Below, one piece after another: positions 986 to 38,983 of a DNA stretch of 64,000 nt (position 1 is its first letter; the number at the start of each line of letters is the position of its first letter). The translations under genes and the position numbers were made by a program. The notes beneath the pieces were generated by a model, which saw nothing but the letters and a program-made list of their open reading frames with translations, was not told the DNA's origin and searched no databases. This DNA comes from Desulfoscipio geothermicus (lineage in GTDB: Bacteria; Bacillota; Desulfotomaculia; Desulfotomaculales; Desulfallaceae): positions 62,001 to 126,000 of the forward strand of contig JAENYF010000001.1 of assembly GCA_016841905.1 (NCBI GenBank), in the 5' to 3' direction.

Positions 986-1681
986 ATGGAGAGCATTTGC
1001 AATGAGGAAGACTACCTGTTGCTTTCCGGAATCCAGCATATGGCCTTCTGTGAACGCCAGTGGGCATTTATCCATATTGAGCAGGCCTGGGCGGAAAACG
1101 TTCGTACATTGGAGGGGAAATTCCTGCATGAACGCGCTGATGATATTTATGATGATGAAACACGCAAAGATATAAGAGTGGTCCGGGCGATGCCGGTTGT
1201 AAGCCACAGGCTCGGACTGCGCGGCGTCGCCGACGTGGTCGAATTTTACAGGATGAGTAAAGCAGCAGAAGAAGTAACCGTACGTCTAAAAAACCGAACA
1301 GGCTGGTGGCGTCCCTACCCCGTAGAATATAAACGTGGCCGTCCCAAGCGTGACGACCGGGATGCAGTGCAGCTTTGCGCACAGGCGCTAGCCCTGGAAG
1401 AAATGTTGAATGTTACAATTGATGCGGGATATCTTTATTACCATCAGATAAGGCATCGTGAACATATCGATCTCGATAAAACGCTGCGTGATCGTGTAGA
1501 GGAACTGACAAAGAATATGCATGAATTAATGGCGGAGGGAAAGACACCGAAAGCAATAAGGGGAAAGCACTGTTCCTTGTGTTCTTTGAAAGAAATTTGC
1601 CAGCCTGACCTAACAGCTCGACATCGCTCGGTTAAAGAGTATTTGATACGCATGGCTGATTTAGAGGTGAAAGATTATTGA
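986..1681 (+). CDS. cas4: CRISPR-associated exonuclease Cas4 (type I-C)
   Basis: 231 residues. Cas4 is a RecB-like nuclease with a 4Fe-4S cluster that trims prespacers and selects PAM-proximal ends with Cas1-Cas2. An N-terminal Cys (HMAFCERQW, about residue 22) and a C-terminal cluster CSLCSLKEIC (about 196-205) supply the four cluster ligands. The central RecB-type motif is visible as YPVEYKRGRPKRDD (about 111-124), with the catalytic E-x-K. ATG lies one base after the cas7 stop. The stop overlaps the cas1 start by four bases, indicating translational coupling. Confidence 0.95.
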   Translation: MESICNEEDYLLLSGIQHMAFCERQWAFIHIEQAWAENVRTLEGKFLHERADDIYDDETRKDIRVVRAMPVVSHRLGLRGVADVVEFYRMSKAAEEVTVRLKNRTGWWRPYPVEYKRGRPKRDDRDAVQLCAQALALEEMLNVTIDAGYLYYHQIRHREHIDLDKTLRDRVEELTKNMHELMAEGKTPKAIRGKHCSLCSLKEICQPDLTARHRSVKEYLIRMADLEVKDY

Positions 1682-2709
1682 GGAGACTACTTAATACTCT
1701 TTATGTAACAATGCCTGAAGCATATTTGGCCCGTGATGGAGAAAACGTGCTGATCAAAGCTGAGAATGAGATTAAATTACGTGTCCCGGTTCATAATTTA
1801 GAAGGGATTGTATGTTATGGTTTTGCCGGAGCAAGCCCCGGTTTGATGCATTTGTGCTGCGAAAGAGGCATTGCGCTTTCCTTCCTAACGGAACACGGGA
1901 AATTTATGGGGCGTGTTACCGGTAGAGTGTCCGGCAATATTCTTCTGAGAAGAAACCAGTATCGCTGGACTGAAAACGCTACCGTATCTTTGAGGCTTGC
2001 CAAGAGGTTTATTTTAGCTAAAATCATTAATGGCAGAGCTGTTTTGCATCGTGCGGTACGGGATCACCCGCAAGCAGTCGACACTGAACTAATAGCCGGC
2101 GTTATGCAAAGTTTAGCAAGCCTAGCCAAGCATTTGGATAGAGCGAAGGATTTAAATACCTTGAGAGGGCTGGAGGGACAAGCTGCTTACCTTTACTTTA
2201 GTGCTTTTAATCAGCTTATACTCAGCCAAAAAGAACATTTCAGCATGACGGAAAGGAATAGGCGCCCTCCATTAGACCGGCTCAATGCATTATTGTCTTT
2301 TCTATATACTTTGCTAACCCATGAGATCGTGGCTGCTCTTGAAAGTATTGGCCTTGACCCTCAGGCCGGTTTTCTGCATAGGGACAGGCCGGGCAGGCCA
2401 AGCCTTGCGCTGGATGTAATGGAAGAGTTAAGGCCTCATTTTGCGGATCGGCTTGCGGTGACGCTTGTAAATCGCAACCAGATAAGTTCTCGCGGATTTG
2501 TCATTAAAGAGAATGGCGCGGTAATAATGGATGAAAAGACAAGAAAAGAAGTGCTTCTCGCCTGGCAGAAACGAAAGCAGGATGAGATTATCCATCCATA
2601 TTTGGAAGAAAAAGTACCACTGGGGCTTGTTCCATACATTCAAGCCATGCTTTTAGCCAGACATATCAGAGGGGATTTAGAAGATTACCCACCGTTTTTC
2701 TGGAAATGA
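1678..2709 (+). CDS. cas1: CRISPR integrase Cas1 (type I-C)
   Basis: 343 residues, the usual I-C length. Cas1 is the metal-dependent integrase that, with Cas2, inserts spacers at the leader end. The N-terminal beta domain begins LLNTLYVTMPEAYLARDGE. The catalytic acid/His residues are expected at Glu in RGLEGQAA (about 165), His in GFLHRDRPGRPS and the acidic pair in LALDVMEELRP. The start is TTG at 1678, overlapping the end of cas4; no better start lies downstream before conserved sequence. cas2 starts nine bases after the stop. Confidence 0.95.
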   Translation: MRRLLNTLYVTMPEAYLARDGENVLIKAENEIKLRVPVHNLEGIVCYGFAGASPGLMHLCCERGIALSFLTEHGKFMGRVTGRVSGNILLRRNQYRWTENATVSLRLAKRFILAKIINGRAVLHRAVRDHPQAVDTELIAGVMQSLASLAKHLDRAKDLNTLRGLEGQAAYLYFSAFNQLILSQKEHFSMTERNRRPPLDRLNALLSFLYTLLTHEIVAALESIGLDPQAGFLHRDRPGRPSLALDVMEELRPHFADRLAVTLVNRNQISSRGFVIKENGAVIMDEKTRKEVLLAWQKRKQDEIIHPYLEEKVPLGLVPYIQAMLLARHIRGDLEDYPPFFWK

Positions 2710-2718
2710 GGTATTTAT

Positions 2719-3021
2719 ATGATGGTACTCATAACTTATGATGTTAGTGTAACGACTGATTTTGGAAAGAAACGTTTGCGCCAGGTTGCCAAACAATGTC
2801 AGAACTTTGGCCAGAGAGTGCAAAATTCTGTTTTTGAATGCTTAGTTGATCCAACACAATTTACTGAGCTTAAGCATCGCTTGGAAGGTATTGTAGACCC
2901 GGAAACAGATAGTTTGCGTTATTATTTTCTAGGGGCAAACTGGAAAAGACGAGTAGAACATTATGGGGTTAAAGAAACCTATGATCCGGAAGGCATACTT
3001 ATTGTTGATGCGAACCTATAG
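2719..3021 (+). CDS. cas2: CRISPR integrase subunit Cas2 (type I-C)
   Basis: 100 residues, full length. Cas2 forms the central dimer of the Cas1-Cas2 integration complex. The ferredoxin-like fold begins with the first strand MVLITYDVS carrying the conserved Asp, followed by GKKRLRQVAKQC and the block QNSVFECLVD. The ATG pair at 2719 follows an AGGT-like ribosome site in the short gap after cas1. This is the last cas gene; the leader and array start 153 bases downstream on the same side. Confidence 0.95.
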   Translation: MMVLITYDVSVTTDFGKKRLRQVAKQCQNFGQRVQNSVFECLVDPTQFTELKHRLEGIVDPETDSLRYYFLGANWKRRVEHYGVKETYDPEGILIVDANL

Positions 3022-3742: not shown

Positions 3743-4209
3743 TAATTATATCATAAATATTATAGTGTCGCACCCCGCGCGGGTGCGTGGATTGAAACAT
3801 CTGCCCAACTGCTGTCAGTATCAATATCATGTCGCACCCCGCGCGGGTGCGTGGATTGAAACAAGCACCTGCCGAGAGTTGACACCAACCACTCCATGTC
3901 GCACCCCGCGCGGGTGCGTGGATTGAAACTTTTTGGCAGCTTTCAAAATAACACTGGCCGAGGTCGCACCCCGCGCGGGTGCGTGGATTGAAACGCTAAT
4001 GGCCTCCACCATGCAGTAAAGTATTTAGTCGCACCCCGCGCGGGTGCGTGGATTGAAACCGCCTGGTCCCTGGTGCATGCAGTATCATGTAGGTCGCACC
4101 CCGCGCGGGTGCGTGGATTGAAACCTCGGTGCCACAATGTTATAGGTAACAGATAAAGCGTCGCACCCCGCGCGGGTGCGTGGATTGAAACGGCGCAGGG
4201 GTGGAGTGA

Positions 4210-4338
<129 letters not shown>

Positions 4339-4687
4339 TGAAGCCATAGAATATGCGTCGCACCCCGCGCGGGTGCGTGGATTGAAACTTCATAACGGTA
4401 ACGGTGGAGCGGTTGAATTATCGTCGCACCCCGCGCGGGTGCGTGGATTGAAACCATATAGTCGTTCGGTCACAAACAGAGCACAAAACGTCGCACCCCG
4501 CGCGGGTGCGTGGATTGAAACTGAATCGATAACTAATTCATATTCAAACATATCGTGTCGCACCCCGCGCGGGTGCGTGGATTGAAACAAGCAGGTGACA
4601 AGCATAGCTGTGACGCAGACGGTCGCACCCCGCGCGGGTGCGTGGATTGAAACTGGTGACCAAGCAGGGTTTGGATAAGCTCCATAG

Positions 4688-5009
<322 letters not shown>

Positions 5010-11802: not shown

Positions 11803-12619
11803 ATGAAAAACAAAAAACCTTTACGTGCTTTGTTGACAGGCGCCCCTATTGGATGTTTTGGCGGGTTAATCGGTTTAGGCGGAGCAGAGTTCCGGTTGCC
11901 TGTACTGAGCGGCCCATTTAAATATTCAGCCCATCGGCCGTATCTCTCAACTTAGCCGTTAGTTTGATTACACTTTTGTCATCCCTGATTTTCAGAATCC
12001 CTAGCTCACCATTTGTTAAATTATTGCCGCTTTTACCGGTGATTTTAGGCCTTAATTGCGGGAGGAATGGCGGAGCATATATTGGGGCGCTTTATACCAA
12101 AAAAATATCCGAACATGCTTTTGAAAAGGTCATCCTGGTTCTGTTATTATTTATCGGGCTATTGCTGATTGGGGAATCTTTTTACCTCTTTGTTTATAGG
12201 GGGATGCAAGCGCCTTTACCGGTTTTAATCCTTATAGCGCTTGAATTTGGCACAGGCATCGGTATGATCAGCAGTCTGCTGGGGGTTGCCGGCGGTGAGT
12301 TAATTATTCCGACACTAATTCTTGTTTTTGGCGTCGATATTAAACTGGCCGGAACTGCCGGCATTTTAATAAGCCTGCCAACCGTGATTACTGGACTCGG
12401 CAGACATTATGCCAATGGCGCCTTTACGCAAAAAAAGATTTTACTGAATTAGTCCTGCCGATGGAGGTAGGTTCTATTATAGGTGCATTTATCGGTGGGA
12501 TGCTTATATTTTATGTTTCCGGTGGCTCATTAAAGCTAATCCTGGGAGTAATATTAATCATTTCAGCCGTGAAAATATTCACAAAAAACCATACTATCAA
12601 CAAGGCTGATATTTGCTAA
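11803..12619 (+). pseudogene. TauE/SafE-family permease, two frameshifts
   Basis: Starts ATG 11803 and reads KPLRALLTGAPIGCFGG...GGAEFRLPVLSGPFKYSAHR in frame 1. It then continues in another frame as SLNLAVSLITLLSSLIFRIP to ANGAFTQKK, and in a third as FTELVLPMEVGSIIGAFIGG to the stop at 12617-12619. Each join needs one extra base: near 11930-11960 (GG run) and at the A7 run near 12432. The family transports sulfite, sulfonates or other anions across the membrane; GAxxGxxGGLxGxGG-like and GVAGGELIIPTL repeats are visible. It is either a decayed gene or two homopolymer miscalls. Confidence 0.8.
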
Positions 12620-33611: not shown

Positions 33612-33824
33612 AATATTTGGCTTAATAGCTCTTATATCAACAAGCCAAACACAGGATTCCCTGCGCTCGGAGGCAAATGCCAAATCATAAAGTATCATAA
33701 TTAACTCATAGCCATATATAAGATACATTTATGCTATTTATAAAGGATTTAATGCTCTCGTGGTTAAAATAAAGATGAAAGAAAGCAGTTATCGTTGATT
33801 ATGAAGCGTAGTGGAGGCAAAGGC

Positions 33825-34247
33825 ATGCTAAATCTGGATGAAGAGGTGCGCCGCAGGGCGGAAAAGTATTTTGACGATGGTTATAATTGCGCTCAGGCAG
33901 TGGCTTTGAGCAATATTGAAGTTTATAATGGCCGCACTGAAGGCATTATTCAGCTTACTGCCGGTTTTGGGCATGGGATGAATTCCGGGTGCGCCTGTGG
34001 CGCGGTTACCGGTGGGGTGGTGGCGATAGGCGCTTTGCTGGCAGGTCCCGATATTAAGGGGTTTGACCGGACAATTGCTAAGCTTACAGCTGAACTGCAC
34101 CGCCGGTTTGTCGGCGAGTTTGGCTTAACTTGCTGCAAAAAGATTACCGTAACCACCGCTGCGATCACTTTGGAATTATTGCTGTCGCAAAAAGCAAATA
34201 TTAACGGTGCCGGTCACTGTACAAGCGCTCTAAATGAGCCGGACTAA
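33825..34247 (+). CDS. C_GCxxG_C_C family redox protein
   Basis: 140 residues from ATG 33825, seven bases after GGAGG; the upstream in-frame ATG has no ribosome site. The family Cys pattern is visible: GYNCAQAV, then SGCACGAVTGG and LTCCKK. These proteins carry conserved cysteines thought to bind an Fe-S cluster or act in redox; the exact reaction is unknown. The gene sits in an otherwise decayed island. Confidence 0.82.
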   Translation: MLNLDEEVRRRAEKYFDDGYNCAQAVALSNIEVYNGRTEGIIQLTAGFGHGMNSGCACGAVTGGVVAIGALLAGPDIKGFDRTIAKLTAELHRRFVGEFGLTCCKKITVTTAAITLELLLSQKANINGAGHCTSALNEPD

Positions 34248-34670
34248 CTCCCAGCAGGTAAAGAAATTTTATTTTATGCATCAGCCAGGCAGTCTGCCAT
34301 TTGCCGTAAGTAAGCCAGCGCCTGGCCGAAGTTATCACGGGCCCTTTTAACAACACGGTCTTTCCCGCCGGCCTTAGTTTTCGGGAGAATATCCAGTCTT
34401 CCATTAATTCAACTACGGGATAGCCTCTCACTTGCAGGAAGTCCTGGCGCCTGACGAAGATAGCTTGAACACCAAAATAGATGCCGGTTAAAGCTGCTCT
34501 CAGGTTGGAGCCAAGCGCCGCCAGGTAAAAAAACAGGCCGGGTTGATCAAATCTCAATTTGAAAGCGCCACTGACTACCTTTTGATTAGCCAGGGCTGTT
34601 TTGATTTGCTGCAAGCCATTGCCGGGAAGCTTTGTATCGCTATGCAGGAAAAGCAAATCTCCCCTGAAGC
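34201..34670 (-). pseudogene. Family 2 glycosyltransferase (arsenosugar/selenodomain-associated type), N-terminus lost
   Basis: About 155 residues starting abruptly at LLFLHSDTKLPGNGLQQIK, where intact TIGR04283-type proteins already have about 75 residues upstream, so the nucleotide-sugar loop is gone. The rest is intact (ALTGIYFGVQAIFVRRQDFL, GYPVVELMEDWIFSRKLRP). Family members are reported from arsenosugar/selenodomain radical SAM clusters. The break point near 34670 coincides with the start of a truncated radical SAM gene on the other strand, indicating one deletion that cut both. Antisense sequence beyond it is not coding. Confidence 0.72.
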
Positions 34671-35373
34671 AGCACTTGACCTGGAGCAATCCGGGGCGAA
34701 CGCCATTTATCTCATGGCCACTGCCCAGTTAAACTTCCAGCGTTTTTTGGAGATGGGGCGGCAGGTCAGGCGGGAGCTCCGGACCAGCATACCGCTTATT
34801 GCCAATATGGCTGACTTTAATGATGAGCAGGCCGTGGCTTTGCGCCAGGTTGGCTTTGCCGGGATTTATCACGCGGTGCGCATGGGCGAGGGCGTTGTGA
34901 ACCGCATTAAGCTGGAGGACCGGCTGCAGTCCATAAAGGCTGCCAGGCGGGCTGGACTGGCTATAGGCACCTGTGTGGAGCCGATTGGACCTGAGCACTC
35001 TGTTGAGGAAATTGTCGAGAAAATAATCATCGCCAGGGAGGCTAAGCCTGGCTTCAGCGGGGCGATGCGCCGGGTGACGCTGCCTGGGACTTCCTTAAGC
35101 CAATATGGTATGGTGGGTGAGGCACGGATGGCCCTGATTGTAGGAGTAGTCCGCCTAGCCACCCCTCGGGAGGTGCCGGGTAACTGTACCCATGAACCTA
35201 ACGTAATCGGGGCGGTGGCCGGGGCTAACCTGTTCTGGGCCGAAGCGGGCAGCAACCCGCGTGATGTGGTTAATTATACTGAAACAAACCGTGGTTTTGA
35301 CGTGGGCAGATGCAAGGAAATTCTTGTTGACGCCGGCTGGCAAGTCTTAGAAGGCCCGTCTAAATTATGTTAA
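34665..35373 (+). pseudogene. Radical SAM (biotin-synthase-like) protein, N-terminus with CxxxCxxC lost
   Basis: From about 34665 the frame reads ALDLEQSGANAIYLMATAQL, then IPLIANMADFNDEQAVALRQ, GLAIGTCVEPIGPEHSVEEI, and LPGTSLSQYGMVGEARMALI, the core and C-terminus of a BioB-like radical SAM enzyme. The first about 80-100 residues with the cluster-binding Cys triad are missing; the open frame to the left (34543-34665) is antisense to the glycosyltransferase. Enzyme activity is therefore impossible as written. Terminal GWQVLEGPSKLC is intact. Confidence 0.75.
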
Positions 35374-35454
35374 GCATTAAGCTATCCTGAGGGCAATGTT
35401 ATCCTGAGCGTTAGCGGCATGGATGTCTATAAGGAGAAGGAGGTGACTAGTTTA

Positions 35455-36139
35455 GTGAAAACATATTCCGCGGGTATCAGGGAAAAATATTGTTCCTGGC
35501 TGTGCTCGGTGGTATCTACTTTCTTGTTCCCTGGGTCAAGATCCATGTTAACCAGGCCTTCTTTATTTTAAGCAACGTAGATGTGGAGATAGTGCGTGGC
35601 TATATTTTGAGCTTCGGCATCTGGGCGCCCGTTGTCTCCTTTGTCTTAATGATGTTTCAGTCTGTGGCGGCGCCGCTGCCGGCCTCTTCGGCTGGGTCTA
35701 CGGGGCTATACTTTCCTGGTCCAGCGCGATGGCCGGGGCAGTGCTTTGTTTTTATATTGCCAGGTACCTGGGCAGGGATACGGTAGTCAAGTTTACCTCC
35801 GTTAAAGCGCTGAAAAGCGTCGATGATTTTTTCGAGCATTATGGTAAATATGCCATCCTAATTGCCCGGCTTCTGCCCTTTATTTCTTTTGATATTGTCA
35901 GCTATGCTGCCGGATTGACTGCGATGGGATTTTGGCCGTTTTTTATCGCTACCGGGGTGGGCCAACTGCCGTCGACAATTGTTTATTCCTATATCGGCGG
36001 AATGCTTACCGGTTCAATAAGAACAATGGTCTTTGGCCTGTTAATGCTTTTTGCCCTGAGCGCTTTACTGGTGCTCTTGAAGAATGTTTGGAAAGATAAA
36101 AAGCTAAAGGAGGGAAATAAGTTTGTGGAAGAGATTTAA
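35455..36139 (+). pseudogene. TVP38/TMEM64 (DedA-like) membrane protein, broken
   Basis: After GTG 35455 (ribosome site AAGGAGGTG) the family sequence appears in a shifted frame as FRGYQGKILFLAVLGGIYFL to FQSVAAPLPA. It then jumps frame to AGLFGWVYGAILSWSSAMAG and runs on to the stop at 36139. Intact relatives have about eight more residues (FLITFAN-like) at the second join, so a deletion of roughly 25 bases with frame change is likely; the first break looks like one missing A. Conserved GQLPSTIVYSYIGG is present. Confidence 0.75.
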
Positions 36140-37086
36140 GTGCCGGCAGCTGTTGCTGGTACTGCTGGTTCTGGTGCTTACTTTGGCCGTCAGCAACTGT
36201 GGAAAGGAGTCGGCGTCTGTAGACAAGCAATCAATCAAGGAATTTGACATCTCAGTTTATCAGAATAACAATTTTCTCATCACGCCTCAACAGCTGCATT
36301 CCATGTTGGACAGCGAAAACCTGGTCTTGCTTGACTGCAATAATCCTAGTATTTACGCCAAAGAACACATTCCCGGCGCTATCGGGATTGGCTTACAGGG
36401 TTTTTGTGATATTGTGGGCAAACCTGGCGATTCGGGTTGGGGGACCATAAAGGATAAAGAAGATTTGCAGAAAACCTTGGCCTCGTTGGGTATAGACAGG
36501 GAAAAGACGGTGGTTTTTTACTCGGATCTTACCGCCGGCCCGGGAGCCGATGGTAGAGCTGTTTGGCAGTTAAAGATGGCCGGGATGGATAATGTGAAGA
36601 TGCTGGTTGGGGGATCTACTTCCTGGAAAGAGTTGGGGTACCCGACAGCCAAAGAAGTAACCCAGCCTAAACCTGTTTCCGGAGTGGTATTGCAAGATTA
36701 CGATCAGAGGTATCTAGCCACAAAAGATTATGTCTTTGATAATTTAGGTAAAAAAGTGATTATCGACTGCCGTACAGAAGGGAATATCAAGGTTCCCAAA
36801 AGGCCGGGGAACCCCGTGGCGGACACATTAAAGGGGCGGTACATTTAGAATGGAAAGATTTGCTTAATCAAGACGCTACACTTTTAAGAGTCCTGAGGAG
36901 ATAAAAACGCTGATGGCCTCTATTGATGTACAACCGGAAGATGATTTTATAGTTTACTGAACTATGGGTATTAGATCTGGTTATATGACCATGATCCTCA
37001 GAGCCGTAGGCTTTGAGAATGCTAGAAACTATGAAGGCTCTATCTATGAGTGGAGTGGGGACCCGCGTATGCCGATGGAGAAGTAA
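36123..37086 (+). pseudogene. Exported tandem rhodanese (sulfurtransferase), two frameshifts and UGA at the catalytic Cys
   Basis: Starts TTG 36123 after AAGGAGGG; N-terminal hydrophobic signal (LLLVLLVLVLTLAVSNC, lipobox-like). First rhodanese domain (HIPGAIGIGLQGF) lacks a catalytic Cys (FYSDLTAG), as is normal. The second (VIIDCRTEGN... KGAVHLEWKDLL ... SPEEIKTLMASIDVQPEDDF) needs single-base corrections near 36833 (AAAGGGG) and 36882 (CTTTT). Its active loop reads IVY-[UGA]-TMGIRSG, TGA at 36958-36960 being exactly the catalytic Cys position. Either a decaying selenoprotein gene or one with base-call errors. A strong terminator follows. Confidence 0.72.
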
Positions 37087-37095
37087 CTAACTGCT

Positions 37096-37147
37096 GCCGG
37101 ATAATTGCTGAACTATATTCGTTCAGCGGTTGTCCGGCTTTTTTTTG
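37096..37147 (+). terminator. Rho-independent terminator after the rhodanese gene
   Basis: GCCGGATAATTGCTGAAC (37096 on) pairs with GTTCAGCGGTTGTCCGGC, loop TATATTC, then eight T. Long, nearly perfect stem. Confidence 0.9.
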
Positions 37148-37319
37148 GTTAAAAGGGTGCGGTTTGCGTGCAGTTTAGCTGCTTTTGGCGGTGCTATGAT
37201 AGTAATAGGCATAAACATCCACCACTCAGGGAAGGATTAACAATAATAGAAGTATCTTGAGGGGAGGGGCCGGTGCTGCCAATTTTTAAAACTGATGCCT
37301 CAGGAACGACGGCCTGCGT

Positions 37320-37433
37320 TCTTTTTTCATAAAACTGCTGAAAACAGAGATTGAGCTTTACAACAATGTGCTCAAGTATGGCAAGATGAAGAGCTGGACC
37401 AAAGTACCGCCGATGTATGTCAATAAAAAATAA
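37320..37433 (+). pseudogene. DUF3231-family C-terminal remnant
   Basis: Reads FFIKLLKTEIELYNNVLKYG then KMKSWTKVPPMYVNKK and stops at 37433. This is the conserved end of DUF3231 proteins; the N-terminal part is absent. It parallels the remnant at 32890-33119, and the two lie on either side of the decayed island. Confidence 0.6.
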
Positions 37434-37714
37434 GGCTTAAGCTTATTTAGGTAGGACGCTGGCTGTCTGGTCGGTGTCCTTTTGCTGTGCCCCCTGAAGG
37501 AAATGTAAATCATCAATTGATGCCTGAATCGCATAACACTATAATTCTCAGGGAACAAATACTATTAATGATTTTAAATCTTGTTCCTCGCTGCTGCTTG
37601 GGATTATTTGTAATTGACCGCTTACTTTGAGGGGATACAACCTGAGGAGCAGAGAACCATGACGCGGCATTTTGCCTCGGTATGTCATAAGCCAAGAAAG
37701 GATGAGACTGTTTC

Positions 37715-38272
37715 ATGCCTTTGCACTTTATTTACCCGGTTTATTCTGCGCTTTTAATGCTACTCGTGCTGGCGGTGGTGCCAAGAGAACAAATTAAAAA
37801 GTTATCGTTATTCGCTATTATTTTTGGTGCAGGTGCCGACCTTGTAGTTATCGTAGTAATTACTATACTCAGTGTTGGCGAATATATAAACATGGGTCCG
37901 TTTGGCTTTATGGGCATTCCTTTTTTCCCGCTTCTGGCTTGGACGGCCTTCTTTATCTTGTATTTTTATTTCATCCCCGAAAAACCCCCCTGGAAATATA
38001 TTTATGTCTTGCTTGCAGCCGGGTATAGCACCATGTTTTCTAACGTTTTGGAAAATTTGGGCATATTTCGTTGGAATTATGGAAACCTTGTTGTTCCATA
38101 TCTGATCTATTTAGGCTGGTTTTCTCTGGCCAGCTGGTATTACTTAAAGGATATAAGAGAAGAAAAAGTGCACGAAAAACAAAGTACCAACAATCAGAGC
38201 ACCACAAGTATCAGAATTTTAAGGGATCCGGCCTGGAAATTAAATCTCAATGTTAGGAAAAAAATTAAGTGA
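37715..38272 (+). CDS. CBO0543-type integral membrane protein
   Basis: 185 residues with about five membrane helices (FIYPVYSALLMLLVLAVVPR; PFFPLLAWTAFFILYFYFIP; YVLLAAGYSTMFSNVLENLG) and a basic cytoplasmic tail. It is a paralogue of the gene at 40765, sharing the PFGxxGIxFxxxxAWxxFFIxYFYFxPE block. Family known from spore formers; function unknown. Start ATG 37715, no strong ribosome site but TTTCATG context. Confidence 0.75.
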   Translation: MPLHFIYPVYSALLMLLVLAVVPREQIKKLSLFAIIFGAGADLVVIVVITILSVGEYINMGPFGFMGIPFFPLLAWTAFFILYFYFIPEKPPWKYIYVLLAAGYSTMFSNVLENLGIFRWNYGNLVVPYLIYLGWFSLASWYYLKDIREEKVHEKQSTNNQSTTSIRILRDPAWKLNLNVRKKIK

Positions 38273-38450
38273 CTCATACCCTGCTCAACTCATTTAACCT
38301 TTGTTCTACTATAATATGTTAATTTATTGCAGTGGGTCTACTATTAATTGTTTGGTGAGCATCCGGTGGTAAGCCCGGTAACACTTTCTATCGGGTCGGC
38401 ATATTATATAGCGTAAAAAAATACAAATTTAACTAAGGAGGAATGTGTCG

Positions 38451-38555
38451 ATGGGCGGAAGTGCACCTTATTTTGATGGCAGTTTTATTCTTTTTCTGAT
38501 TCTGATTTTGCTGGTGTTTGGCATGGGATTCTTCGGCTACTATGGAGCTAAATAA
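38451..38555 (+). CDS. YjcZ-like small hydrophobic peptide
   Basis: 34 residues, MGGSAPYFDGSFILFLILIL then a Gly/Tyr-rich end (GMGFFGYYGAK). The pattern fits YjcZ-type sporulation peptides, single membrane helices found in many Bacilli and Clostridia. AAGGAGG lies nine bases upstream of ATG 38451. A hairpin CAAAGCGC/GCGCTTTG follows at 38563-38589 and a strong terminator at 38662. Confidence 0.8.
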   Translation: MGGSAPYFDGSFILFLILILLVFGMGFFGYYGAK

Positions 38556-38661
38556 TTTAACTCAAAGCGCTCCCCCTGCGGGCGCTTTGGTATAATCACC
38601 TCCTGTACAGAATATAATTAATCAACACCCCCGACAAAATAATCCACATATTATTCTGTCT

Positions 38662-38709
38662 CCCAGCCCCCGGTTCCGCGTGTGAAGGAACAGGGGCTGG
38701 GCTTTTTTT
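38662..38709 (+). terminator. Rho-independent terminator
   Basis: CCCAGCCCC (38662-38670) pairs with GGGGCTGGG (38693-38701), followed by CTTTTTTT. It ends transcription from the small-peptide gene and insulates hcp. Confidence 0.85.
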
Positions 38710-38888
38710 GAGGCCCCGGCGCTGCCGGTGGAGCTAGCCAAAGGATGCATTTATGGTTGCCGGGAGATTAAATTAAAATTTTCGATAATTGACTAATAAG
38801 CTGCTCTTCGCCGGTTAAGTTGGACAAGCACCCGGACCCGTTAAGTTGCTTAACTAAACTAATTAGTGATTAACTTAATACCCGTGGT

Positions 38889-38902
38889 GTGATCTGAATC
38901 AT
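38889..38902. promoter_or_regulatory. CRP/FNR-family (HcpR-like) operator candidate upstream of hcp
   Basis: GTGATCTGAATCAT is a near-palindrome of the GTGA-N-TCAC class used by CRP/FNR and HcpR regulators. It lies about 80 bases upstream of hcp. HcpR-type control of hcp under nitrosative stress is known in anaerobes; the link here rests on motif and position only. Confidence 0.4.
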
Positions 38903-38983
38903 AGTTTGCTGCTGCCCAGAGCGGTAAACTAATTACAACAAAGCAAATAAACGAAAAAAATAAACTTGAAGGGGGTAAAAAAT

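Follow-up and report, generated by a model that had tools for sequence, protein, structure and literature searches.

A UGA-interrupted tandem rhodanese in Desulfoscipio geothermicus as a decayed member of a putative selenocysteine-containing lipoprotein family with a predicted two-hairpin SECIS

Within a stretch of 64,000 nucleotides from Desulfoscipio geothermicus (contig JAENYF010000001.1, positions 62,001 to 126,000, hereafter the window), a UGA triplet interrupts a tandem rhodanese gene at the place of the nucleophilic residue. This raises the question of whether the triplet is a selenocysteine (Sec) codon or an ordinary stop, and whether the gene that carries it can still be functional. 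The reading that we favour, with a probability of about 0.86 on the sequence evidence, is that the gene derives from a family of Sec rhodaneses with a two-hairpin SECIS, and that the operon encoding it was recently broken in this organism. Members of this family would be secreted, lipoprotein-type tandem rhodaneses, in which the nucleophile of domain 2 is a UGA-encoded Sec.

The UGA codon and its counterparts in homologous genes

The pseudogene (36123–37086, forward strand) is assigned to a tandem-rhodanese lipoprotein with a putative Sec in domain 2 on the basis of its alignment, the identity of its joined reading to the intact orthologue and two matches to PF00581, which are obtained once its three frames (36123–36782, about 36782–36876 and about 36880–37086, all on the forward strand) are joined. 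The active loop of the second domain reads IVY-U-TMGIRSGY and, in profile alignments to solved enzymes, the UGA (36958–36960, forward strand) occupies the column of the catalytic Cys of the T. thermophilus rhodanese 1uar (VVYC) and of 8k55. The initial annotation, which had proposed both a tandem rhodanese in this interval and a UGA at the catalytic Cys of its second domain, is borne out on these two points. The nucleophile belongs to the second of the two rhodanese domains, and the loop of domain 1 (YSD) contains no Cys. The model of the intact orthologue has a mean pLDDT of 87.5, and tandem thiosulfate sulfurtransferases are the structures that it matches best in the PDB. A lipobox-like motif is found near the N-terminus of almost all complete members, so the rhodanese should be located outside the cytoplasm; in the window copy, the lipobox region (36189–36200, forward strand) reads VSNC, versus SGC/AGC/SAC-type sequences in nearly all homologues.

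A first search of 150 related genomes identified full-length homologues that share 49–94% identity with the window reading and contain a single in-frame TGA. A wider scan, with two peptide patterns typical of the Sec rhodanese group, covered 84,980 species genomes and yielded 38 loci with a single TGA, located at the catalytic column, and TAA or TAG as the end codon. These loci come from four bacterial phyla and belong to Clostridia (including Sporotomaculum, Desulfoscipio MAGs, Pelotomaculum, Tepidibacter, Romboutsia, Clostridium frigidicarnis, Peptoclostridium and Desulfosporosinus), Aquicultor-type Actinomycetota, Fusobacteriaceae and one Desulfobacteraceae MAG. The 36 Sec rows included in a 56-protein tree were separated from the remaining sequences by a branch with support values of 100/99, and the nearest relatives of this clade (L036–L039) have a Cys at the column, within CTKG/CTVGIRS. 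No Cys member was seen inside the Sec group in the scan with the two group-typical patterns, and no relatives were found among the viral contigs. The residue at this column in homologues had been put forward as a test of the Sec proposal, and both residues are present, Sec in the 38 loci and Cys in the sister group. Two further Sec rhodanese sequences may be decaying or mis-assembled copies: a second, N-terminally truncated one in Desulfosporosinus metallidurans (L095), and L091, which matches from residue 80 only.

The genome itself encodes a full-length SelB, a tRNA-Sec (anticodon tca), three FdhA and one SelD, and each of these FdhA and SelD genes contains one TGA; a HesB-like selenoprotein was searched for and none was found. 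The use of Sec by this organism, as initially proposed, is thus confirmed at the gene level by SelB, tRNA-Sec and SelD, and the lack of Sec machinery, which had been named as an argument against the proposal, was tested for and the machinery is present. SelB was detected in all 24 genomes tested (the genome studied here and 23 relatives), including those devoid of the rhodanese, so the loss of the rhodanese does not amount to the loss of the Sec trait. A scan of the window against G004, the reference genome used below, for further conserved in-frame UGAs proved too noisy to be of use, since antisense and off-frame readings are also conserved at such identity.

These data bear on two other explanations for the UGA. 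It could be an ordinary stop, as UGA is by default, with the 3' part of the gene as untranslated debris of a truncated rhodanese, and the C-terminal part of the window copy does lie in a frame different from that of the start. However, in 38 loci from four phyla the region beyond the UGA is conserved at both the protein and the RNA level, the PDB profile alignment continues through it, and the genome has the Sec machinery; we consider this explanation very improbable. Alternatively, UGA might be generally reassigned or suppressed in this organism, independently of Sec, given that several genes have an in-frame TGA, but the genes concerned encode FdhA and SelD, which are classical selenoproteins, both SelB and tRNA-Sec are present, and code 11 yields ordinary open frames across the window, which leaves this possibility with almost no credence. 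The UGA of the window is very probably, by origin, a real Sec codon, and we infer that such a UGA directs Sec insertion in this family. SelB and Sec-tRNA would decode it under the guidance of a downstream SECIS composed of two tandem hairpins.

The predicted two-hairpin signal

Judged from the aligned sequences, the nucleotides 3' of the UGA are conserved far beyond what the protein would require, with synonymous sites frozen (Leu CTC in 35/38, Gly GGC in 38/38 and Phe TTT in 37/38), a pattern that extends to AT-rich clostridia. Two tandem hairpins were obtained in each of the seven diverse members folded, with a variable register for hairpin I. In the window, hairpin I (36974–36996, forward strand; GAUC-U-GG-N-U / A-N'-CC-A-(bulge)-GAUC) is placed 13 nt after the UGA and is proposed, from folding, z values and covariation, as the SECIS spacer. 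It is followed by hairpin II (36997–37017, forward strand; CUCAGAGCC-GUA-GGCUUUGAG), the proposed SelB-binding part, in which the G of the apical loop is at position 37006, at a distance of 45 nt from the UGA.

In comparisons of stability with synonymous-codon randomisations, the mean z was −2.8 for hairpin I (columns 17–39), −4.1 for hairpin II (columns 40–60) and −4.0 for both hairpins jointly, with 37 of the 38 loci at 0.05 or under in the joint comparison; the signal was absent from 13 Cys homologues. Across 39 sequences, 90.7% of the cells of the two hairpins were paired and the covariation score was 0.133, values that none of 500 shuffles matched (controls that leave some shared ancestry), and sliding the partners by 1–3 columns decreased the paired cells to 28–46%. 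One pair of hairpin I (columns 24:31) changes by lineage, with AU in 23 sequences, UA in 7 and CG in 3. RNAalifold returned hairpin II only, and the register of hairpin I shifts between lineages. The hairpin suggested in the initial annotation (AUGG/CCAU plus GUAU/AUAU) was not retained, as it performed no better than shuffles on 39 sequences (191/500 for pairing and 190/500 for changes on both sides).

The published bSECIS model specifies a stem of 4–16 bp and an apical loop of 3–9 nt, located 16–37 nt from the UGA, whose first two positions include a G, often with G or U as the following base (PMC13188914). Hairpin II has the stem and apical loop of this model, the latter being G[U/G]N in 38/38 loci, including Fusobacteria, in which the codon is one for Gly instead of Val, but hairpin II is located outside the spacing range, at 45 nt. 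The loop of hairpin I lies 22 nt after the UGA, and its usual tetraloops (AUGC, AUAU and ACAC) lack a G at both of the first two positions. A search of the window against Rfam gave no match at the gathering score.

The other selenoprotein genes provide a comparison. FdhA genes of the same genomes and lineage have a hairpin with a GGU-type loop about 18 nt after the UGA. In SelD of the same lineage (L111–L143, e.g. L112 and L113), a short hairpin starts about 11–13 nt after the UGA (mean z −2.35), and a second hairpin (mean z −3.26) has, in 27 of 32 genes, a GUN triloop at 33 nt from that codon. The layout predicted for SelD of desulfotomaculia and their relatives is similar to that of the rhodanese. 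From this parallel and the G[U/G]N loop of hairpin II, we infer that the first hairpin serves as a spacer and the second binds SelB: hairpin I would fold the spacer, and hairpin II would present its apical loop to SelB. The roles could also be reversed, with hairpin I as the SelB-binding SECIS and hairpin II maintained for some other reason, such as ribosome stalling. The position of the hairpin I loop, within 16–37 nt of the UGA and close to the approximately 18 nt observed for FdhA in the same genomes, is consistent with this assignment, but the lack of a G at the first two positions of its usual tetraloop and its varying register are not, and the G[U/G]N loop belongs to hairpin II in all 38 loci and mostly to the second hairpin of SelD; we consider such a reversal unlikely. 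Keeping to hairpin II as the putative SelB-binding element, there is in our view an even chance that these signals correspond to a distinct SECIS layout, in which a compact spacer hairpin positions a G[U/G]N triloop hairpin for binding by SelB, at a distance of up to 45 nt from the UGA. This layout would be common to the new family of Sec-rhodanese lipoproteins and, with a shorter spacer, to the SelD of desulfotomaculia, and programs that search at 16–37 nt would miss it in the rhodanese.

Genomic surroundings and relationship to known rhodaneses

Of the 35 Sec loci long enough for the surroundings to be judged, 31 have an intact gene for a VTT membrane protein (PF09335) immediately upstream of the rhodanese, on the same strand and usually overlapping its start. 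Genes for arsenosugar-type glycosyltransferases (TIGR04282 and TIGR04283) are located nearby in 12 loci, together with a radical SAM gene of the ArsS type in four of them and BioB/PylB-like in the other eight. The protein would most likely be an extracytoplasmic sulfane-sulfur transferase, with the VTT protein encoded upstream as its probable partner, and in desulfotomaculia and desulfosporosini this pair would adjoin the arsenosugar-type glycosyltransferase genes. In several lineages, the neighbours of the Sec rhodanese also include iron-sulfur (CCG-type) proteins, which are encoded next to VTT genes or fused to a VTT domain (L083, L087 and L092).

Sec-containing rhodaneses are known from predictions, and five forms were listed in a 2026 review (PMC13188914). 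By class, form 4 comes closest. It is a Sec-containing rhodanese-related sulfurtransferase of COG2897 reported from the Sargasso Sea in 2005 (PMC1088965; PMC13188914), and is also a tandem rhodanese with Sec in a rhodanese domain and a UxxG motif. It is known from marine metagenomes, its descriptions in the texts consulted contain no lipoprotein signal, VTT partner or two-hairpin SECIS, and it may belong to the same clade. Forms 1–3 and 5 (PF00581/COG0607 types, form 2 being COG0607; NF041203 LYCAU and NF045694 TsoB) are likewise rhodanese-domain selenoproteins but differ in their architecture or in their motifs (UxxS, CxU and UxxxxU), and matches to the LYCAU and TsoB models were far under the cut-off. 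Thiosulfate/3-mercaptopyruvate sulfurtransferases (SseA, CysA2/3 and 1uar) share the fold and the catalytic column but are Cys enzymes; two members scored 64–70 bits with NF008557 (SseA), versus a cut-off of 250. The N-terminal 190 residues are similar to those of ExtH, a rhodanese of selenite/tellurite reduction (NF040901), with 54–66 bits versus a cut-off of 200. The DedA-rhodanese fusions of COG0586 (PMC10127716) have a DedA-type membrane domain and a similar link to rhodanese; however, they are single fused proteins for which Sec is not mentioned, whereas the genes described here are separate and overlapping, with a predicted Sec.

No NCBIfam model was matched at its cut-off by the two members scored, none of the NCBIfam families matched by ten aligned members names a Sec-rhodanese subfamily, and no publication naming a lipoprotein, VTT-paired Sec-rhodanese subfamily was found in the literature searched. 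Sec rhodaneses as such are known, but this lipoprotein, VTT-paired subfamily, with its two-hairpin SECIS of long spacing, is a variant that has apparently not been described. It would constitute a widespread and apparently unnamed selenoprotein subfamily, which annotation with UGA as a stop truncates just before the active site, and a testable case for the reach and structure of SelB action. It would also provide a selenium-dependent extracellular rhodanese linked to VTT/DedA membrane proteins, the tie of which to rhodaneses has been called unclear (PMC10127716).

Decay of the window copy and of its operon

Breaks in the window copy were defined relative to the intact orthologue of G004, which coincides in position and length with the one on Sporotomaculum syntrophicum contig NZ_LSRS01000008 (L059). 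The window rhodanese lacks a single frame from start to stop, even when the UGA is set aside, as a result of a 1-base deletion in a GGGG run (36779/36780, forward strand) and a 4-base deletion (36874/36875, forward strand). The suspicion raised in the initial annotation that the gene might be dying is supported by these frame breaks. Its two gaps of 1 base were placed incorrectly, at about 36833 and 36882, and only the first is of the size proposed, the second involving the loss of 4 bases. No other copy of the rhodanese was found in the genome.

The remainder of the operon is also damaged. The VTT (DedA/TVP38-like) gene, which overlaps the start of the rhodanese (35419–36139, forward strand; PF09335), is a pseudogene that has lost 1 base at 35458 and 28 bases at 35681. 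Upstream, a 2.35-kb deletion (junction at 34673–34675, forward strand; concatenated coordinates 36607–38954 of G004) took a TIGR04282-type and a flippase-like gene, together with the N-terminal part of a TIGR04283-type gene and the beginning of a radical SAM gene. What is left on either side is a remnant of the TIGR04283 (arsenosugar-type) glycosyltransferase gene (34201–34673, reverse strand) and a remnant of the BioB/PylB-like radical SAM gene (34675–35373, forward strand), the latter within a chimeric open frame (34543–35373). A C_GCAxxG_C_C family gene adjoining the operon (33795–34247, forward strand; PF09719/TIGR01909) has an open frame.

The breaks could instead be errors of sequencing or assembly in an intact gene for a working selenoprotein, since one of them is the loss of 1 base from a G run and the assembly is a draft of 91 contigs. 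Individual breaks may indeed have this origin, but the remaining ones amount to 4, 28 and about 2,350 bases within a single operon, which makes assembly error unlikely for all of them, and elsewhere in the window the frame-changing differences from G004 are mostly intergenic. The Ka/Ks ratio of the rhodanese is also raised, at 0.69 (from 14 differences only) versus about 0.05–0.34 for other window genes, and its lipobox is altered. We regard an intact gene as improbable. On the evidence of its sequence, the window copy is a recent pseudogene that could not make the selenoprotein now; the four small deletions and the 2.35-kb deletion broke the operon, which would yield at most a truncated, inactive N-terminal product. 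Selection on the operon would have been lost recently, with Sec decoding kept for use elsewhere in the genome, and the window copy would represent a selenoprotein operon caught in the course of its loss. Around the rhodanese (34675–37191), Ks relative to G004 is about 0.02, versus 0.05–0.33 for most window genes and 0.1–0.3 across the greater part of the window, and this low value suggests a recent exchange or recombination of the stretch between the lineages of the window and of G004.

Two further observations were made elsewhere in the window. A gene of 269 aa that is intact in G004 is broken by several 1-base differences at 11936–12597 and is a probable pseudogene. A repeat array at 3760–4728, the translation of which includes NPRTRAGCD, lies downstream of probable cas genes (986–3021) and resembles a CRISPR array.
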